From Diphasiastrum complanatum (lineage: Eukaryota > Streptophyta > Lycopodiopsida > Lycopodiales > Lycopodiaceae), in NCBI GenBank assembly GCA_029204225.1, contig CM055113.1, positions 14,783,471 to 14,847,470 on the forward strand: 64,000 nucleotides of DNA, written 5' to 3'. Under the pieces are notes generated by a model. That model searched no databases. It saw nothing but the letters and a program-made list of their open reading frames with translations, and had not been told where the DNA came from. Position numbers and translations under genes: made by a program. Positions 582 to 60,677 of the stretch are shown here, one piece after another. Position 1 is the first letter of the stretch, and each line of letters starts with the position of its first letter.

Positions 582-10044
<9,463 letters not shown>

Positions 10045-48960: not shown

Positions 48961-50251
<1,291 letters not shown>

Positions 50252-50667
50252 TAGTGACATTTGCACCAGATAAAGCAGCTACTGTGGGACCATTAAGCCG
50301 ACCCATTATTGAAGGGCCATTGAACCAAGTGTAAAGGTCACGAATAGCTTTTTCCCACAAGCAGGCTCAATGTTTTATGGGTTCACTAACTCCACCAAAC
50401 CTTAACACAACATTAGAGGAGTTCTCAATATCAAAAAGACCCTTTAAGAAATGCCATGTAGGATATAGAAAAATATCAAAATAAAAAAAACAATATTGTT
50501 TATTTGCTTGCCCACACCACTCCCAAGGCCTCCCCAACTCCCAATGATCTAACCACAGTGTCTATAGTCACAGTTAAAAACTATTAACAGTTTGCAGTAT
50601 AACTTACTAAACTCAAAAATATTCCCTCCATTGGTTACGAAAAGGGCAATATTTTCAACAGATCTAG

Positions 50668-50810
50668 AATATGACCGCCATCCCCAAATTTGAATCAGAA
50701 AAAATTGCAAAATGTTTACATATGCATTCCTTCCACGAGAATGGAAATATGGGTGCCATCTCCAATTATGAACGCCATCACCACTTTGTAATGGAAATAT
50801 GAGCGCCAAC
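50668..50810. repeat. Four subterminal GCCA-type repeats
   Basis: ATATGACCGCCATC, ATATGGGTGCCATC, TTATGAACGCCATC and ATATGAGCGCCAAC occur at about 50669, 50748, 50767 and 50797. A related GGGCGCCAAAAATC lies at 59428 near the opposite end of the candidate element. Such repeats often bind transposase. Confidence 0.5.
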
Positions 50811-51042
50811 TACCTATTGGAATGAAAAAAAGAGTGGCATTTCCAAATTTGAATCAAGCATACAAGCATGGAGTTTGGATTGATCGTACATAGTATATAA
50901 TATAATCAAAGATGAGTACTTTGCTTTGCTTCATAGAATCTGGTCATAGTACTTTGATGCAACTGATTACTCTATTATTTTTTTGATGATGACATTGTAT
51001 CATCTACATGTGGATATCCCTATTGATTTGGCACCTTTGCAG

Positions 51043-53644
51043 AGAAGAGGAGGCAAAGGAATTCAAATATCTGTTGAGGATCGTTCTCGTTACAGGGCAG
51101 AAGGGAGAAAAAACTTGGATTTGTGGATAGATGGAACATTATATCCACAAGATCCAAGCACTTTGACACATCCCACGTTCTCTTCAATAACTCATTTAAT
51201 CACATGGATATGCAATGGACATAGTGGATTACTAGGATATTGTGAAAGATTTCAGAACCATGGAAAACGACTTTATATGAATAAAGTTCACTTTTTAGAA
51301 GGTGAGTTAATTCGGATATCCTCTTATTGTCATAATAGAGATTGTCATCTCCAAAAGACATTAGAAGAAAATGAACAACTTAAAAAAAATAATGAATCAT
51401 TACAGAAGATAACAATCAATATCAAATCAGAACTAGAGCAAATGTAATCAGTCTTACAGTCTATTCGTATTGAGAACTTACAATTATTGAAGGATGTGGA
51501 TTTGGCAAAGAAGAAGGCTGAAAGTAAGAAGCAAAATTGAAAAAGTTGCAAAGATATTCAAACACTTTCAAAAGGAGGTTATCGAAATAGAAGGATCCGT
51601 GCATTCAAGTAAGCATATTTTGATTTTTGTAAGTTTTTCAATGACATTTGGATTTAATTTCGGCTATGGTGATATTCTATTAACTATCTGTTTTTTTTGC
51701 AGATCTGCATTAGTAGCTCCTCGGAATATTAAAGACAATGCTTCACTAGGAATGTCATTGGGCACAATATTGACTTGAAAATCGACTGAGCGTATCATGA
51801 TGAACAATAGGATTTCAAATGTAAAGTGTAAAATAGCAGAGTCTTTGATGGTGGACATTCAAATTTTTTTAGATAAGACTATAGTTCAGGGTGCTTGTGA
51901 TTTTGCGGGTATTAGCAGGGAAGCATATGCAACAATATTTAAACTAATTAGAGAAGCTTTTAAGCAAGTTCAAATTAGAAACATCCCAATCCCTAGGACA
52001 TATCACTTGAAGAAAGAAAGGGATACATTAAACATAGGTATGCATAAGATCACTGGAACTCCATTTCATATTGAGGAGGTGTATGAAACTGATGGAAGAT
52101 TGATATTCTATAATTCATCAAACAATTTATTTGTTGATCTAAATTACTTGCTGAGATACATCGTCACATTCTATGATATAACCTATGAAAAGGTGAATGG
52201 CAAAATAATCATAGTACTTAAGTTAGATGAGTCAGAAATTGTGAAAGGGCAGAAGATGGAGAGGGTTAGTATAACTCTCATGAATGGTGCTCTATCACAA
52301 ACAGAGAACCAAGAAGATTTCAGATTCAGTGTCCAGTCAGAAAATGATATATGGTGGTTGGCAGCGTTTCAGGTAACTAGCCTCATTATTACACTACATT
52401 CATTGAATAGTATTCATACATTGTAAATTAAGTCTGATTAATTTTTTTGGACAGGTGCTAAAAGAGGATCATGATATTTTATCATGGATATTCTCAAGGA
52501 CATCTTATCCTAGGATCATCAAGGACCATATGGATGGAGGACTTCTCAATGTTCCAGGAGTTGGAGACTTCAATGTTGAATGGCACTTAGCAGGTGATTT
52601 GAACACATTAGAATGTATGTATAATGTCTCTCACGGTGCTACATCAAAACACCCTTGTTTGTACTGTATGAAAATGGCAAAAGATGTAACTAGGGGCACA
52701 TGAATTACTAGAGAATATGCAGAACCAAACTGGAAGCCTGTGCTACCTATTCCCTTACAAAATGTGCATGTTTGCACTCTTCATGCAGAAGTTAGATTTA
52801 TAGAAAAGATCATTTATCTTCATATAGTTTTTGCTTGGAATACTAAGCCAGCATCATTAGCAAAGGAAGTTATCTCTCGATTAGAAGATGTTTTATCGAA
52901 AGCAGGACTCCATAAAGGACATGTCAAAATTCAAAAAGATGAAAAGCTTTTAGGAAAGAATGGGAACATGCCAACTAAGCCAAGCATAGGAGGAGCAAAA
53001 GCACGTCGTTTCCTATCAAATCATACTGGTAGGGCTTCTAATATTCAACACTCAGTCTGGACAGATATTATTGCTGCTACTGAGGACTTCGAGAAAGACG
53101 GCAAAATCAGAGTACTAAAACTTGATGTATGGAAAAAGCTTGATAGTATGATTGCTATTTTAAGAAAAGAAAAATACTCTAATATTGATAAGAAAGCTGT
53201 CCAAAGGACTTGTGTCGAGTTTGTTAATGCAGTATCAAAGGCATAGGGAGATGATCACATCACTCATTACATGGTTAGTATTAAATTCTTAAAATGCTTT
53301 CAAATTTAAATATATATTTAGATCCAAACATAAGACTAACATTATGATTTTGACATATGCAGCACATACTAAGAGATCATACAACATTTTTTGCAAATAC
53401 ATATGGAAGCTTGAGTGCATGGTCATCACAAGGGATGGAGAAGTCACACTGGCAAGCACGAGCAGCATATTTCATCGAAATACACAACATGGAGGAACCA
53501 ATAAAAAATGAAACTACTTTTGTCAATTGTTTCAGTGGTTCTACCGCAGAGTTCAAATTCGACATAGAACAAAGTCCGCACAATACAAGAAGTTTAGAAA
53601 AGCATGCAAGTTCATACATGACTAGAAAATTAGATGATTGTTGA
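51043..53644 (+). pseudogene. DDE/RNase H-like transposase candidate, four exons, five in-frame stops
   Basis: Exons 51043-51608, 51703-52372, 52455-53273 and 53363-53644 join in phase through GT-AG introns and give one frame of about 780 codons without an indel. In-frame stops: TAA near 51445, TGA near 51537, TGA near 51777, TGA near 52701 and TAG near 53244. Exon 1 ends in a long coiled coil (LQKTLEENEQLKKNN). Candidate catalytic residues are Asp in VLKLDESEIVKG, Asp in WHLAGDLNTLECM (followed by the metal-type pair SKHPCLYC) and Glu in SSQGMEKSHWQ near the end; CTLHAEVRFIEK lies between. The GDL...HPCxxC and H...GxExxH pattern resembles uncharacterised proteins seen in many invertebrates. 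I cannot name the superfamily; KDZ-type (Zisupton, Dileera) is one possibility. The true start may lie upstream of 51043. Confidence 0.6.
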
Positions 53645-54100
53645 GTACAAGGTCATCATTATCATCAAATCATGACATGTTCAGAATTGCTTTGCAAATT
53701 CATTGAACAAGAAAGGAGAAATACTCAATGTAAATGTATTGATTGTATTATACCAAAATACAAATTGTTAACTATTCATCATCAGATCTTGTGTCAAATT
53801 CTATGGCAGTATTGTCATGAAAAAATTCTCTGCTAGCGTATGCATCTAATAGATTTGCATTATTCTTATTTCCACTAAGCTCAATATAAGTGGAATACAA
53901 TGAATAATGGGAGCTCCTTAAAGAAAAATTCCCATCAGTAAAGCCTAAAATGTTCAAAACATAAGATCTTTTGACAAAAATGATCTTATTTGTCTTTACA
54001 AATTTATGTCCTCCTAGGTAAAATGATAAAGCTTTAACTGCCATTATAAGAGTCTCCCCGACTGGGCTCAGCTTGGAATGAGCAATACATATCTCATTCT
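53645..54100. other. Spacer between convergent genes
   Basis: Short AT-rich sequence between the 3' ends of the transposase candidate and of the minus-strand acidic-protein gene. A 90-codon minus-strand frame here has no recognised domain and ends opposite the expected 3' UTRs. Confidence 0.5.
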
Positions 54101-55287
54101 TTAGGAATGCCTAAGATAGTGGCCAAGTCCACTATCCCTCTGGAAAGACGATGCGTGTTGTCTGAAACCACCTCGTCTCGTAGCAAAATCATCTATTATG
54201 AGAGCATCCTGCAATAGAAAATTTCTTAGCAAAAACACATCCAGTGATGAGAAATATCGTAATGCAAGGAAGTTCTAACACTTACACATTCTTCATCATC
54301 AGCAGCAACCAGATCAGGATGATCAATATAATGACCACGTACTGAATTGGAATCATCCGTGAAATGCAATAATGATGGACGAGAGAAGCCCATCTGGGAT
54401 TGAAATGCCGTGAATTCTTCATCGGATGGTCTGCCTTGCCCATCCTCAGTTATATTTGATAAAGTCTTAGTCAAGCATTCTTCAGCACTCATAATTCTCT
54501 CCTCATCATCAAAATCAATACCAGCAACAAGATCATCTGTTTCAAAATCTACGAAGTCGGAGAATTTGAAAATTGTGCCGGATGATAAACATAGAACCTC
54601 GTCTTCACGATGGTCAAAAAATTTACATAAATCAGCAGTAGTGAAATATACATCGTCATTAATATAATATACAGGCAAATTGAATAGACATTTAGAATCC
54701 TCTATAGGGTTGGATTCATCAACAGATGTATTTTGGCCAATAAAAGAATCCCGTAGAGAATCAGTATTTATATTTATAAAGTCACTTTCCTTATCAGGAG
54801 TGTCGATAAGAAAGTGACTGATGTCCTTGATAGCTGACTGAACGGAGGATGATGAAAAGGGAGGGTCAACAACATAAATTTCATCATCATCTGGGATCTG
54901 AACTAACAAGAAAAGTACGAAACCACTATGATATTCAACCAATCGACATTTCTTATTGCAATAAGGACACAATGAACTACTTTTGAAAAGATCAAACAAT
55001 TTGGTGGACATTCTATCCAATCTATGTCTGAAAGCTAGAAAGAAGTGAACCAGATCAGTATAATGCATGTACTGGAGTGAACCTATGGAGAAAACAGGCT
55101 TACTAAGTATATCTCTGAAGCTAACATAATGTTGATAAAAAACGTCAAAATTCGGTTGTGCAGTCCTGAAAACATGCAGATATGGCCTGAATAGGCTGTG
55201 GAAGTAGTCCAGATTTTTAGTAATCCCAAATTCACTAAGAAATGAACTCAAGCCTGAATCTCGTGAGGATCCTGAGGAAGAGGCCAT
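54101..55287 (-). CDS. Unknown acidic protein with CxxC...C cluster, two exons, intact
   Basis: Exons 55287-54286 (334 codons) and 54208-54101 (35 codons plus stop) join in phase over a GT-AG intron (gtaagt at 54285, attgcag before 54208), giving 369 residues with no stop or shift. The start is MASSSGSS. Residues about 20-110 look like a helical domain rich in Phe and Tyr (YFHSLFRPYLHVFR, YQHYVSF, FFLAFRHRLDRM). Next comes CPYCNKKC, a possible zinc site, then long acidic stretches (DDDEIYVVD, DFETDDLVAGIDFDDEE, ADDEEC) and a basic tail ending RRGGFRQHASSFQRDS...YLRHS. I recognise no family. It is divergent from the H3-like gene and shares its promoter region. It is the only gene of the candidate element without stops, which suggests either younger age, selection or chance. 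Confidence 0.7.
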
Positions 55288-56119
55288 TGAAATAAAGTGA
55301 ATATCGCACTTGTGCGCGAGGAAGATGAGAAAGAAAACTAACTATCAAGATGACGCACAAGAGAGATATGTACGGCTCGAGATACCGAATATCGCACTTG
55401 AGCGCAAGTAGGTGTCATTGAGTGCAAACGGTCAACAAAGCGCGTGCACAAGAGCGATATGCCATGAATTTCGTTAACGGAAAAAGGATAAAAATTAATA
55501 GGTTTTCATGTCATTTATACTAAATTTTCACATGTGCGGTCAACGGTCAATGGACACATGTCTACTTTCGATTCGACTACAGCTACTGGCACGTGTGAGG
55601 TGACACTTGGACATGTGTGAAATGACAACTGGACACGTGTTGCATGTTCATTCGTGTGCTCAAAAACACGTGTCCCTCTATCATTTGCTCGTACAAATCC
55701 CACACGTGTAAAGTGACAACATGACACATGTCGCTCTGTCATTTGTTTGTACAACTCCCACACATGTGATTGGACATTCTTTCGCACGTGTGAACCAAAA
55801 TATAAAACCACAAATTTCGATGAATTTTTTTCACTTTTTTTTTCGCTTCGCATATCGCACTTGTGCGTGTCCTTCACACTCAAATTTCCACCTACCGCCT
55901 TTCATGCGCACAGGTCCAATACACCTGCCTACATGTCCCCCTGTATCGCACTTGTGCGCGTTTCTTCAGAACTAATATCTTTCTGTTATATTCAGCTCGC
56001 ACAGGTTCGATATACCGTACGTTCCTTCCGTACATATCGGTCCTCTGTGAGATTTTTGTCACCCTTTTGTTCTCATCCTCCCCGTCGCGCGCAAGTCCGC
56101 TATTGCATAGTACACATCC
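55288..56119. promoter_or_regulatory. Divergent promoter region with two palindromic motif arrays
   Basis: Motif 1, (AT)ATCGCACTTGTGCGC, is a CGCAC/GTGCG dyad found at 55303, 55390, 55853 and 55944, plus a diverged inverted copy at 55446-55460. Motif 2 is a G-box-like dyad, ACACGTGT or ACACATGT, with about ten copies at 55529-55793, several in a repeat of about 22 bp (GGACACGTGTGAAATGACAACT-like; first 20 bases or fewer conserved). Motif 1 copies lie close to both gene starts and motif 2 lies between them. They could bind a bHLH/bZIP factor, a product of the element, or both. Confidence 0.65.
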
Positions 56120-57869
56120 ATGGATAGGAGAAAGTAGACCCGGAGGGACTTCTTCTCTTATGGCTCATCCTCAGCCCTTGCGGTGGCCATTACCCCTCCT
56201 GCTAGACATAGAATGCGCAACCGCAGCAGGTGGCTCTCTGAGATACGCAAGTACCAGAGATCAACTACGCTGTTGATCCCAAGGGCTCCATTCTACTGTG
56301 CTGTCCAAAACATAACAAGAAATTATCTCGGACAGCTTGTCAAATTTACACCCAGTGCTCTTCAGTGCCTTCAGGAGGCTGCTGAAGATTACCTTAGTCT
56401 TTTTTTTGAAGATTCATCTTTGCTTGCCATTCATTCCAAGAGAGTCACAATAATGCCCAAGGACTTTCAGCTCCTGATGAGAATGAGGGATAGGTTCTGT
56501 AGGTTGCACGTATCTCAGCCTTCTGCTCCCAAGCCAACACCTGTAGATAGGACTGATCTTCCTACGAAGCGTCCTAAGAAGCAGAGTGCCCCCAAGAGAG
56601 CTCCAAAGAAAGATCGTAGACACCACAGATTTTGTGAAACCTTACCCGGAATCAATTGTAGATAACGTTGTTGTTGATAATGCTGTAAATATAGCTACAG
56701 TTGTTTTGGATATTGCTTTAATTCCTATAGATACTACACATCCACCTCCTCCTCTTCCTCCAATTTTTTATACATATATAGATTCGGATGAGTATCTTAG
56801 ATTTGAGAAAGACATATCAGATGCTATAGATAAAATTGGCACTCCTTTTTGTTTTAGACTAGATGAACTTGATTTTAGTATTAATTTTAGAGTTTTAATT
56901 TGCTTGGATCTCAAAGACAGACGAACTTCTATCAGTGATCCTGTGATAGAGTCCGGGCTGACACTCTTGCAATTTGACATTGCAAGAGATTCATCAAACG
57001 AGTTGCTGGTTCTAAGTAACTTTCTGCTCCAGGCCTTCAAGGAGAATAATGACACATTGTCACAGTGTCTGACAAGTGGATTCACACTAGCAACAAAGTA
57101 TCTGGTCATTCCTTATCATACCAAGTAAGATATATTAAGTGATTCTTCCTGTTTTATGCATTAACATTGACATTTTTAATTTAAATAGATCTCAAAATTG
57201 TCGCTAAAGTACTTTCAATCTTATTTTGCAGTGACCACTGGAGTTTCAACATGATCTCTATTAAGAGCTCTGTAAATAATAGTATCAAAGGTTTTTGTGT
57301 CAAGATGAATTCGGCGAAAAATACGCATAAGGATGTAGATATATATCTGCCATATTTAAGTAAATATATTCCTACAGATGTTTCCCATTTTGTGGACTGG
57401 GAGATCGTGAGTTTGGAGGTAAACTCTATCTTTCTTAATAGCATGTTGAAATCAATATTCTAATGTGATTGTTTCATTCTAATTCATTCTGTTTCATAAT
57501 TGATTTCTTTTGTGTTGAATTATTTTGCAGTCACCATAGCAAAATGATTCAGCTGTGGGTGGTACACGTTATACAATGCCAAGTTATTTTTTGAGTGGTT
57601 CAACCTTCAGGAAGATGTTGATATTTCCAAGGTAATAAATTCTGTTTATTCTTATTTTTGGAATCATGATTAGTTTTCTATTTTGTTGATGTTTTTAGCC
57701 ATTACTAATACATGAATGTTCTATTTTGCAGTTTACACTTCATGAGTACACATCAAGCTAGGTGTACAGATTCAGACAAGAAATCATCCTGAGTATACTG
57801 GCTAGGGCAAGGCTTCAGCCTCTCTTTATTGATGATCGTGCAAAGGATGATGTAGTAGTACTAAATTAA
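56120..57869 (+). pseudogene. Histone H3-like (CENH3-leaning) domain followed by Ulp1/C48 protease domain
   Basis: ATG at 56120 gives MDRRK, TAG, TRR, which aligns with the H3 tail A-R-T-K-Q-T: R2, K4 and T6 match and the stop sits at Q5. The histone fold follows without a shift: RWLSEIRKYQRSTTLLI, LQCLQEAAEDYL, LFFEDSSLLAIHSKRVTIMP, KDFQLLMRMRDR. Loop 1 is one residue longer than in canonical H3, and AEDYL and KDFQL are CENH3-like. A basic Pro/Lys-rich linker ends in another frame shift near 56590-56630. The Ulp1-like part uses exons to 57124, 57232-57418, 57531-57631 and 57732-57869, all GT-AG. It shows LVIPYH, catalytic HW (DHWSFNMI), QNDS and, one base out of frame, CGWYTLYNAKLFFEWF with the catalytic Cys. 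TAG stops also interrupt at 57537 and near 57759. It is unclear whether H3 and Ulp1 were one protein or two. Confidence 0.7.
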
Positions 57870-58064
57870 GATCAGAACATATATAGATAGCATAGAAAAA
57901 AAATACATGTATAGAATTCATAGAAAAATATACATTTATATATCAAATGCTGCTCCATTTTATGAATTTGGGAGCACAAAATACATGTATTGATGCCCAA
58001 CTTGGGCTTTCATTTATTGAATGAAAGAGTGTATACACAGATTTTTACTAAAGTTTATTTAAAA
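57870..58064. other. Spacer between convergent genes
   Basis: Short AT-rich sequence with AATAAA-like text, between the 3' ends of the H3/Ulp1 gene and the minus-strand unknown gene. Confidence 0.5.
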
Positions 58065-59414
58065 CTATTGTTCTCCCTCAATGGTGATTGTTGTAGGTAG
58101 ATCTTTGCAGCACGTTATCAGCTCCTGTCTTTTTCGCATCTGTGACATGACAAATATTAGTGAATGTGCAATTGTAAATCATGAAATTGTCTATTATTTT
58201 GTTCTATTTTGACATGGCAATAAACATAAAGTACTTACGAGTCTTACGTTGATGATAAATCTGAAATATGTTGGTAGATTGGTTTGTAATAGCATGAGCT
58301 CTGTTCTGATAAAATCAAGCTTCCAATGTTCTTCCACCTCAACCATAGTAAAATATTCCTCATTGTAGATAATGCTTATCTCCATTCGATTTGTGTGACC
58401 TTTTAGTTCAAAGTCTTGATCCAGTGGTAGCCATGTACCTTCAATTTTCTTGTATCTCTAGTAGCTAAATGTGAGACTGAGCATTTGCTTTTCGATATGA
58501 TAACGAAAAATCATTGAGGATTTTTTAATCCTGCATTCTATGTCATTATTTGTTTTACTATCCCAACCTTGATCCATGAGATCTGACAAAGTCTCATCTG
58601 ATAAATCCTTGCAAACAAATAAAGTTGGTGTCCTACGAACACTAGCACTCGAGAAAAAATCAACAAATATATGTAATGAGATAAACCAACTTAGGTGAAC
58701 AATTTTCGAGTATGAGCATAGCATTTCTAATATCAATTAGTAGCTTGCATCTGAAGGATTCAGAAACGCCACTCATCACTTTGAAAACTAGGCAATGGAA
58801 TTGCTTCGAGCTTGCCAAAACCTCCATCTGTTTGTGGCGTATATAAAGATTCATAAAAATAGATACCACAATCTGCAAGTTCCTTTGGACTTCTTCCTCT
58901 GTATTGCAGCTTTCCAACATCAGAGTGAATCACGTCTAATATTCCTGCAAGTGATTGTGTGGGCTCCCATTCACTTATGCATGATGGATATAAATCTGAA
59001 AGGAAAAAACAATGTTGAAGCATTTAAATCATAATCTGAAGGAGGAAATCACCTATGATTGTTGTAGAGTGCATATGTTTTGATATACTTACAATTACAT
59101 TTTTTATGATCATGAGGATTGATATCATGTACTTTGATCTCTGAATGCATATATACATGTTGCACTAAGACTTATGATATCGATTGGCCTCCCGGGGTAG
59201 TCTTAAACTCCAAAATTTTTGCTTTTCAATAAGATTTGTAAGTCATTTTTGCTCTTTTCTTTTGTCGAAAATTGCCCTTTGATGATGGATGCAGCAATAC
59301 CCATGAGTTCTTCATATATTTTGTTGGCTTCCAGTTATCAGCTTCATCTTTCTCATTGTAGAAAATCACAGAATCGATTGTAGATCTGGGTCTCCTTGCC
59401 ATTGCTATTTTCAA
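58065..59414 (-). pseudogene. Unknown spliced gene of the candidate element
   Basis: Exon 1 is 59414-59093 (MARRPRSTIDSVIFYNEKDE..., ending VHDINPHDHKKCN at a gtaagt donor) with TGA and TAA stops in frame. Exon 2 starts at 58995 after ctttcag and joins in phase (LYPSCISEWEPTQSLAG...CGIYFYESLYTPQTDGG). Further coding text to 58239 is in shifted frames (SVRRTPTLFVCKDLSDETLS, then FSY, TAG, RYKKIEGTWLPLDQDFEL and EEHWKLDFIRTELMLLQ), ending at a gtaagt donor. The last exon, 58139-58065, reads MRKRQELITCCKDLP...EGEQ and a stop. No domain is recognised. At least two frame changes near 58740-58770 remain unexplained. Confidence 0.5.
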
Positions 59415-59646
59415 AGCTTGGGCGCCAAAAATCTCTCTGATATGTTACCTAATTTTAATTTTTCGTATCACATTTAATCTAATGTGAATGCCAACATAGT
59501 CACAGTTACTGCGTATACCATATTTTATGTAACTGTACATACTATATTTCTATAACTGTAACTAGTATAGTTAGAAAATTTCATTATACTAACCAGCATA
59601 GTAAAGTAAATTTAACTTGAGGTATTGACGTCGGGTAGATTAGCAC

Positions 59647-59698
59647 GTGTCGGGCAGGAAGAAGAAACCAATGGGATACGTCCATGTTGCCCGGACAC
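59647..59698. repeat. Inverted repeat near the right edge of the candidate element
   Basis: GTGTCGGGCA at 59647-59656 pairs with TGCCCGGACAC at 59688-59698 with one bulge and a spacer of 31 bases. It contains or adjoins CACGTG. It may mark an element end or be a small foldback insertion. Confidence 0.5.
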
Positions 59699-59700
59699 AA

Positions 59701-60677
59701 ATTTCAAAGTTTTCTATATTGCATTTTTATTTTTTTGTTAATTTGAACTACGTTACGTAGATTTCAAATCTGTGCATTTTGATTGGGCCTGGTGATGGTC
59801 GAAACTAAAAAAATAAAAATAGAAGTATCTTCACAAAGGGCCTTTTGATATTGAGAACTCCTCTAATGATTCTTAAGGAAAGCCAACCTTTTGTAAGATT
59901 TAATCATGAAGAAACATGAGGGAATTTTCCAAGTGAATTCTTTACGTGAGGGGTAAAGGCACATGTGGGAGAGCTTTACACTTTCAAGGGCCCCTCTACC
60001 AATCCATGGGTGGGGAGGCAAAATGGTGTAAAGCTCAACACTCTAGCTTTTATCCTACCATGCTCATAAAACCCATGGGCTCTCAGCATAACAAATCCTT
60101 AAATTGAACAAATTCTTTTGTTTGTGATATCCTATAATGCCCTAAAAAATGAAGTGAGTTTTTGGCAAGGCTTTCAAGGATATGTCAACCTCGTGTTTGA
60201 AAGCCAAGGTTTTCAAAATTCATTTCAAAAACACATCTCAGAACATGTCTTCAAATATTAAAACTTCTCTATACACGACATTTGAAAGGCATAAAATAAA
60301 GTACCATATCAAGGCAGGTTACAAGAAAATGATACCCTTTATAGAGAAAGGAAGCTATGGACTACAGATTACAAGTCTAATTGTGATGTCTGGCCTCTTG
60401 CATGAACATCATGTATTTGAACTTTGAAGCCTACTTCTATTTCCTACATTCAGGCTTAGAGAGACTGTTGCAAACACGAGCAAGGCCTCTAGTTTTATCA
60501 CCTTGCTACAATACAAAGTTGCTTTCAAATGGTATAAGTATGTACAAAAGTTTGAGGTGTAGAAACTATCAGTAGGTAATTGAGAGTGATGATCCAGGCA
60601 GTCGTATGTACCTATTTCACGTTCTCACAGTTCTGAATGCAGTAAACTGTGTCAGCATGTTTTCAAGTAATTGCAGT
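59701..60677. other. Intergenic region, no gene seen
   Basis: AT-rich sequence between the candidate element and the 3' end of the conserved gene. A frame of 81 codons at 60182-60427 has no recognised domain. The part next to 60677 is the presumed 3' UTR of the conserved gene. Confidence 0.55.

Follow-up and report, generated by a model that had tools for sequence, protein, structure and literature searches.

A histone H3 variant joined to a Ulp1-like domain in a decayed transposon gene of Diphasiastrum complanatum

Introduction

Why should a histone H3 fold stand directly before a SUMO protease domain in the genome of a clubmoss? The question is raised by positions 56120-57869 of a 64,000-nucleotide stretch of Diphasiastrum complanatum DNA (assembly GCA_029204225.1, contig CM055113.1, positions 14,783,471 to 14,847,470, forward strand), referred to here as the window. 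An earlier, sequence-only reading had described at this place an H3-like domain with features of the centromeric variant CENH3, followed by a Ulp1 domain, and had proposed that a transposon either captured a CENH3-like gene or carries a histone of its own that is loaded together with its own deSUMOylase. We find that H3 and Ulp1 are parts of one true fusion gene, and that this gene is carried by a transposable element. As to its role, we consider it evenly poised, judging from sequence, whether 56120-57869 is the decayed copy of a gene, borne by a transposon of the CACTA-Mirage-Chapaev-Transib (CMCT) clade, that encodes a variant H3 plus Ulp1 protein with a net anti-silencing effect.

A Fusion Gene Carried by a Transposable Element

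Read from 56120 on the forward strand, the window frame begins MDRRK-stop-TRRDFF, which is the H3 tail start with R2, K4 and T6 that had been claimed, interrupted by a stop codon at 56135-56137. The open reading frame (ORF) that follows, 56138-56662, matches the Pfam Histone profile (PF00125; E 2.9e-26) and H3 entries of the PDB (E 6.3e-24), so that the profile search for H3 returned a clear match. The histone fold itself (56222..56509, forward strand) is also borne out by an AF2 model, and the alignments confirm the features first read by eye, namely a loop 1 longer by one residue than in PDB H3 and the motifs AEDYL and KDFQL. Beyond the fold lie a basic linker, a frameshift near 56612 and a Ulp1/C48 domain, all on the forward strand, the domain being split between the end of exon 1 (56120..57124, which comprises the H3-like tail, H3 fold, linker and Ulp1 start), exon 2 (57232..57418, with the DHW motif), exon 3 (57531..57631, QNDS..CG) and exon 4 (57732..57869). 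The window copy is decayed, with at least five lesions, which are stops (56135, exon 3, exon 4) and frameshifts (near 56612, exon 3), and its Ulp1 domain matches PF02902 with E 6.7e-5 and 23.2 bits.

The genome searched comprises 1.745 Gb in 5,176 contigs, and it contains at least 150 strong matches to the H3 ORF (from 7,311 first-look candidates), many of them in open frames of about 340 amino acids. Twenty copies, 10 kb each, were fetched by the criterion of a stop-free H3 match. Each of the 25 distinct copies compared (the window, L002, L004, L006, L008 and L009-L028) has Ulp1 sequence after its H3 fold. L001, L003, L005 and L007, which duplicate the window, L009, L010 and L011, are left out of this count. 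The Ulp1 match comes to only 25 residues in L002, and to about 120 in L006 and about 90 in L008. Because the order is the same in 25 of 25 copies, chance adjacency is excluded. Four of the 20 fetched copies keep an open frame; in three of them it continues through all four exons to the usual stop (L010, 479 amino acids; L014 and L020, 470 each), and in L018 that stop is missing; of the remainder, 11 are broken and five (L015, L017, L019, L021, L026) have exons 2-4 not all located. Introns of the GT..AG type separate the exons of L010, L014 and L018. The protein of the open copies, 470-479 amino acids long, consists of a variant H3 (tail D-R-R-K-Q-T-R-R-D and a complete fold), the basic linker and Ulp1/C48, and matches Pfam Histone at 1e-27 and Peptidase_C48 (PF02902) at 1.1e-10. 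One premature stop, at H3 codon 6, is identical in four of 21 copies (window, L009, L016, L022), by shared descent or recurrent mutation.

The Ulp1 assignment, likewise first made by eye from the motifs HW, QNDS and CG after a basic linker, is also sound. In an open copy the C48 domain scores 42.2 bits against a Pfam cut-off of 20.7, the catalytic His, Gln and Cys lie in DHW and QQNDSF[SN]CG in L010, L014 and L018, and the same three residues align with those of yeast Ulp1 (1euv; E 0.0015). Among 5.8 billion proteins no H3-Ulp1 fusion was found (candidates of about 258-822 amino acids); the search with the fused protein gave 15 matches that have a histone and lack C48 in their Pfam annotation (six sequences inspected), and the H3 ORF alone gave 56 protein matches in a search that covered proteins up to 306 amino acids. 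No relative was confirmed in viral contigs.

That the gene is transposon-borne, as had been supposed, is evident from its surroundings. Self-comparison for inverted repeats, together with borders common to several copies, delimits an element of 9,458 bp (50411..59868, forward strand). Its left terminal inverted repeat (CATTAGAGGAGTTCTCAATATC...; 50411..50445, forward) is 94% identical over 35 bp to the right one (59834..59868, reverse). The right border is identical in the window and ten fetched copies, and since a 35-bp inverted copy of this common right end sits at 50411, we place the element at 50411-59868; the left border was seen in the window, L010, L011, L014, L015 and L021. The 26-bp core of the repeat occurs 1,401 times in the genome (694 forward, 707 reverse), the reversed-pattern control giving 0. 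The element contains a transposase, the H3-Ulp1 gene, a divergent ORF2 and an ORF3, and no fewer than 12 of 85 scored transposase places, in a comparison made by eye, have an H3 match on their own strand at a distance of 2-4 kb.

Purifying Selection on Both Ends of the Protein

Selection was measured in exon 1 as the ratio of nonsynonymous to synonymous variants (N/S), relative to expectation, among variants common to at least three of 21 copies, which are probably for the most part older than the insertions. It is lowest for the H3 fold, at 0.18 (17/31), followed by the N-terminal part of Ulp1 (0.23; 13/19) and the tail (0.28; 6/8), and reaches 0.69 (33/18) in the linker; both the H3 fold (Fisher p 0.005) and the Ulp1 part (p 0.04) differ from the linker. 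With a threshold of two copies the corresponding values are 0.25, 0.39, 0.33 and 0.74. Read in its five other frames, the H3 stretch gives 1.52, 1.25, 1.15, 0.91 and 0.37, the last being the reverse frame with coinciding third positions. For exons 2-4, which hold the catalytic motifs, 16 copies give an N/S of 0.24 (16/21), while the remaining two forward frames yield 0.76 and 2.63. The low ratios in the H3 fold, the N-terminal part of Ulp1 and exons 2-4 indicate that both ends of the protein were kept for function while the element spread. With a single frame running through both domains in the open copies, this supports, of the second original proposal, an element-specific histone with a deSUMOylase-like domain of its own, joint loading of the two being a possibility.

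The Histone Tail and the Affinity With CENH3

All 21 tails compared have R2, K4, T6 and R8, and none has K at position 9, where D stands in 18 and G, N and Y in one each; the ARKS motif at 27 is absent in the copies read. CENH3s also retain MARTK and are without K9. Absence of K9 in these sequences thus fits an escape from H3K9 methylation and also fits descent from CENH3.

The suggested phylogenetic placement was carried out, and it upholds the claimed CENH3-like nature of the histone only in part. In a tree of 74 rows (P0056, P0065 and L043 dropped) the element H3s group with plant CENH3 at 96/86, and in the tree of all 77 rows, less firmly, at 86/87; in these trees the bootstrap had not settled and three of the four plant CENH3 rows were provisional sequences. 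The approximately unbiased (AU) test gives p 0.43 for the grouping with CENH3, and a grouping with canonical H3, at p 0.20, is not rejected. Loop 1 is longer by one residue in the elements described so far (family A), whereas a second family of element histones, family B, has a loop of canonical length. The sequences lean towards a CENH3-like histone: H3 fold, longer loop 1 in family A, AEDYL and absence of K9 are shared with CENH3/CENP-A, towards which the tree placement also leans and from which the element H3 differs as a multicopy transposon gene fused to Ulp1, and in family B by its loop.

A search with CENH3 queries did not identify the host CENH3, the best matches (best 150 listed) being canonical-type H3 (L034 and L044 read) and element copies. 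A candidate on C14 (L043, 239-703, minus strand) was not accepted as the host CENH3; it is a further intronless H3-like gene of element or host, with a tail MARTKQTARL that lacks K9, a loop 1 longer by about four residues and a partial relative on C3 (L045).

This affinity raises the prospect that the protein mimics CENH3, the element H3 entering centromeric chromatin as a safe site or for meiotic drive and the Ulp1 domain blocking the SUMO-dependent eviction of misplaced CENH3. We regard this as unlikely, given that the AU test keeps the canonical grouping and that the loop of family B is canonical. Nor does the genomic distribution point to centromeres. Among 100 repeat-core matches listed, all on C1 and up to 98.48 Mb, 28 fall at 64.97-66.68 Mb and 20 at 95.0-98.5 Mb (by eye), and ten repeat ends sampled from both clusters have one common flank per cluster. 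The dense clusters are for this reason read as local amplification of a unit with an element end, and centromere targeting, considered from the repeat density on C1, was rejected.

The Transposase and the Class of the Element

The transposase is read in three exons on the forward strand. The first (51779..52372, an ORF whose listed start may not be the true one) bears the first catalytic D (KLDESEI) and has 36 relatives; the second (52455..53273) bears the second D (GDL), CxxC and HVCTLH and is interrupted by two in-frame stops; the third (53363..53641) bears HILRDH and GSLSAWSSQGMEKSHWQAR, with H(4)H and the likely catalytic E, a motif also found in P0074, P0075 and P0084. The relatives (P0072-P0107) are metagenome records with no Pfam domain listed. 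In their alignment the first D is present in 32 of 32 filled rows and the second in 35 of 35, and the C and H columns are almost invariant. The element thus has D-D-E with C(2)C and H(3-4)H as in CMCT transposons, H(4)H and E being present in P0074, P0075, P0084 and the window exon. Comparison of the transposase by sequence gave 0 matches in the PDB and stray weak matches only in Pfam. The modelled structure of one relative gives matches to RAG1, to amphioxus RAG-like and to Transib; we know of no solved structures for CACTA, Mirage or Chapaev transposases, so this fold match cannot separate the branches of the clade.

On these motifs and the modelled fold, we judge that the element belongs to the CMCT clade (CACTA/EnSpm, Mirage, Chapaev, Transib, RAG-like, Plavaka), with which it shares D-D-E, C(2)C and H(3-4)H as outlined in PMC12730594. 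It is unlike the others in an inverted repeat that begins CATTAG and not CAC, in carrying an H3 gene, in the absence of a regular target-site duplication among eight element pairs (3 bp, TCA, in one; 2 bp in one; 1 bp in three; none in three), and in that no RAG2-like gene, by kelch or PHD match, was found among its accessory ORF pieces tested. A repeat start of CAC and a 5-bp target-site duplication are given as marks of RAG-like and Transib elements (PMC7204232); as the repeat here begins CATTAG and none of the eight pairs has a 5-bp duplication, we do not assign it to that branch.

The RAG1 fold of the transposase family invites the thought that the histone serves transposition, the H3 domain joining the transposase complex to nucleosomes for target choice or excision timing, and Ulp1 having SUMOylated transposase or repair factors as its targets. 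RAG2 reads H3K4me3, and K4 is kept in all 21 tails. We nevertheless think such a tether quite unlikely, in view of the missing kelch and PHD matches among the accessory ORF pieces tested.

A Second Family of Element Histones

Family B was found by the search with CENH3 queries, and comprises H3 genes in open frames of 305-421 amino acids (L041+L035 at C18:43252938-43254197, L036-L040, L042, L046). The six fetched end directly after the histone fold, and five of these six are proline-rich. The one start read, on C18 (two copies were read upstream), gives the tail MARTKQTARR, again without K9. The stretches examined for family B gave no Ulp1 match. Next to one copy, on C19, lie relatives of the family A genes ORF2 and ORF3, arranged in a different order, and the H3s of the two families form one group (96/89 in the 74-row tree), so that one acquisition with later reshuffling would explain the pattern most simply. 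The same search gave many further open H3 matches not sorted by family, and a decayed H3-like stretch, beginning MARTKSIARA, lies on the minus strand of L023 near 9418-9790, within the 10 kb that also contain a family A copy.

These data bear on whether the histone is a mere passenger, an H3 or CENH3 gene trapped by chance beside a Ulp1 gene, with a product useless to the element. Captured gene pieces are reported as frequent in plant elements (PMC13317346), and in 17 of the 20 fetched copies the frame either fails to reach the usual stop or could not be followed throughout. We still consider a passenger very unlikely, for the H3 fold and the Ulp1 exons are under purifying selection, of which the linker shows little and the other frames mostly none, and H3 is retained in two element families, one family B copy having other genes in common with family A. 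That H3 and Ulp1 are no fusion at all, merely adjacent genes or a polyprotein always cut apart, as the end of the family B protein directly after its fold might suggest, is highly improbable when the family A frame is stop-free from the H3 start into Ulp1 up to a splice donor in many copies, with open frames of about 340 amino acids.

Other Features of the Element and the Window

Two accessory genes complete the element, both on the minus strand. ORF2 has a first exon of 353 amino acids (MASSSGSS...; 54226..55287), divergent from the H3 gene and without a family match, and a second part (53772..54110) with a related part in one family B copy. ORF3 (58194..59023) is disrupted in the window and has a related gene in one family B copy. 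About 160 bp to the left of the element lies a long CT/TC microsatellite (window 50122-50250), with complementary arrays at 29.7 and 30.9 kb, and direct repeats spaced about 1,472 and 2,093 bp apart occupy 21.8-26.1 kb.

A Proposed Mechanism and Its Parallels

If the fusion protein is indeed anti-silencing, its H3 fold would pair with H4, so that histone chaperones could carry it into chromatin, or the fold might bind nucleosomes; in either case the H3 part would tether the Ulp1 domain to chromatin. There Ulp1 might remove SUMO from silencing factors or histones or, if inactive, bind SUMO, and the K9-less tail would be unable to take H3K9 methylation, the mark of silenced plant transposons. 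The net outcome would be anti-silencing, comparable to that of VANC of Arabidopsis VANDAL elements. In its boldest form, which we hold to be doubtful, this transposon lineage swaps the nucleosomes on its own copies for a self-made, K9-less H3 with a SUMO-removing domain.

Several observations weigh against an anti-silencing role. The copies were selected for a stop-free H3, and the fraction with an open gene is accordingly not that of the genome. No Asp stands at the aligned column of the Ulp1 catalytic acid, where the Asn of KMNS can be aligned with a gap. The active-site Cys is replaced in four of the 18 copies with exon 3 read (L011, L016, L020, L025), among them L020, one of the three open copies, and is deleted in L012; where it is lost, the domain may bind without cutting. 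Since CENH3s are also without K9, its loss was possibly inherited from the donor gene and not selected. Finally, a C-terminal fusion on H3 may sterically limit entry into nucleosomes.

Precedents are VANC, a transposon protein with anti-silencing activity by which methylation is lost from its own family (PMC5735166), and KIU, the name of those VANC genes that carry a Ulp1 domain, to which no function is yet assigned (PMC13317346). Both are chromatin factors encoded by VANDAL transposons, non-TIR MULEs of Arabidopsis, as described in these two sources. VANC binds DNA motifs, whereas the present element has an H3 fold in place of the targeting part, and it has inverted repeats and a CMCT-clade transposase where VANDAL and KIU elements are MULEs. 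Fungal transposons with TET/JBP and oomycete transposons with SET methyltransferases, CMCT members among them, likewise encode chromatin modifiers according to PMC12730594; those are modifying enzymes, while the element here encodes the histone itself. Mobile genomes with core histone variants include those of viruses. Histones are encoded by bracoviruses (H4) and Marseillevirus (doublets), but the present element is not viral and its histone is fused to Ulp1.

Implications

Known transposon cargo includes anti-silencing factors that bind DNA, as well as TET enzymes and SET methyltransferases. A transposon-encoded H3 was not found among the open-licence PMC papers listed (titles and abstract openings), and a core histone variant that is under selection, joined to a SUMO protease domain and encoded by a transposon is new as far as our searches reach. 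As the same genome has at least one further family of this kind, core histones encoded by transposons may form a class. Should the protein enter nucleosomes, it would represent a new way of escaping silencing, by replacing the substrate of the silencing mark, as well as a natural means of editing SUMO on chromatin; it would also bear on the exchange between fast-evolving H3 variants such as CENH3 and mobile DNA.
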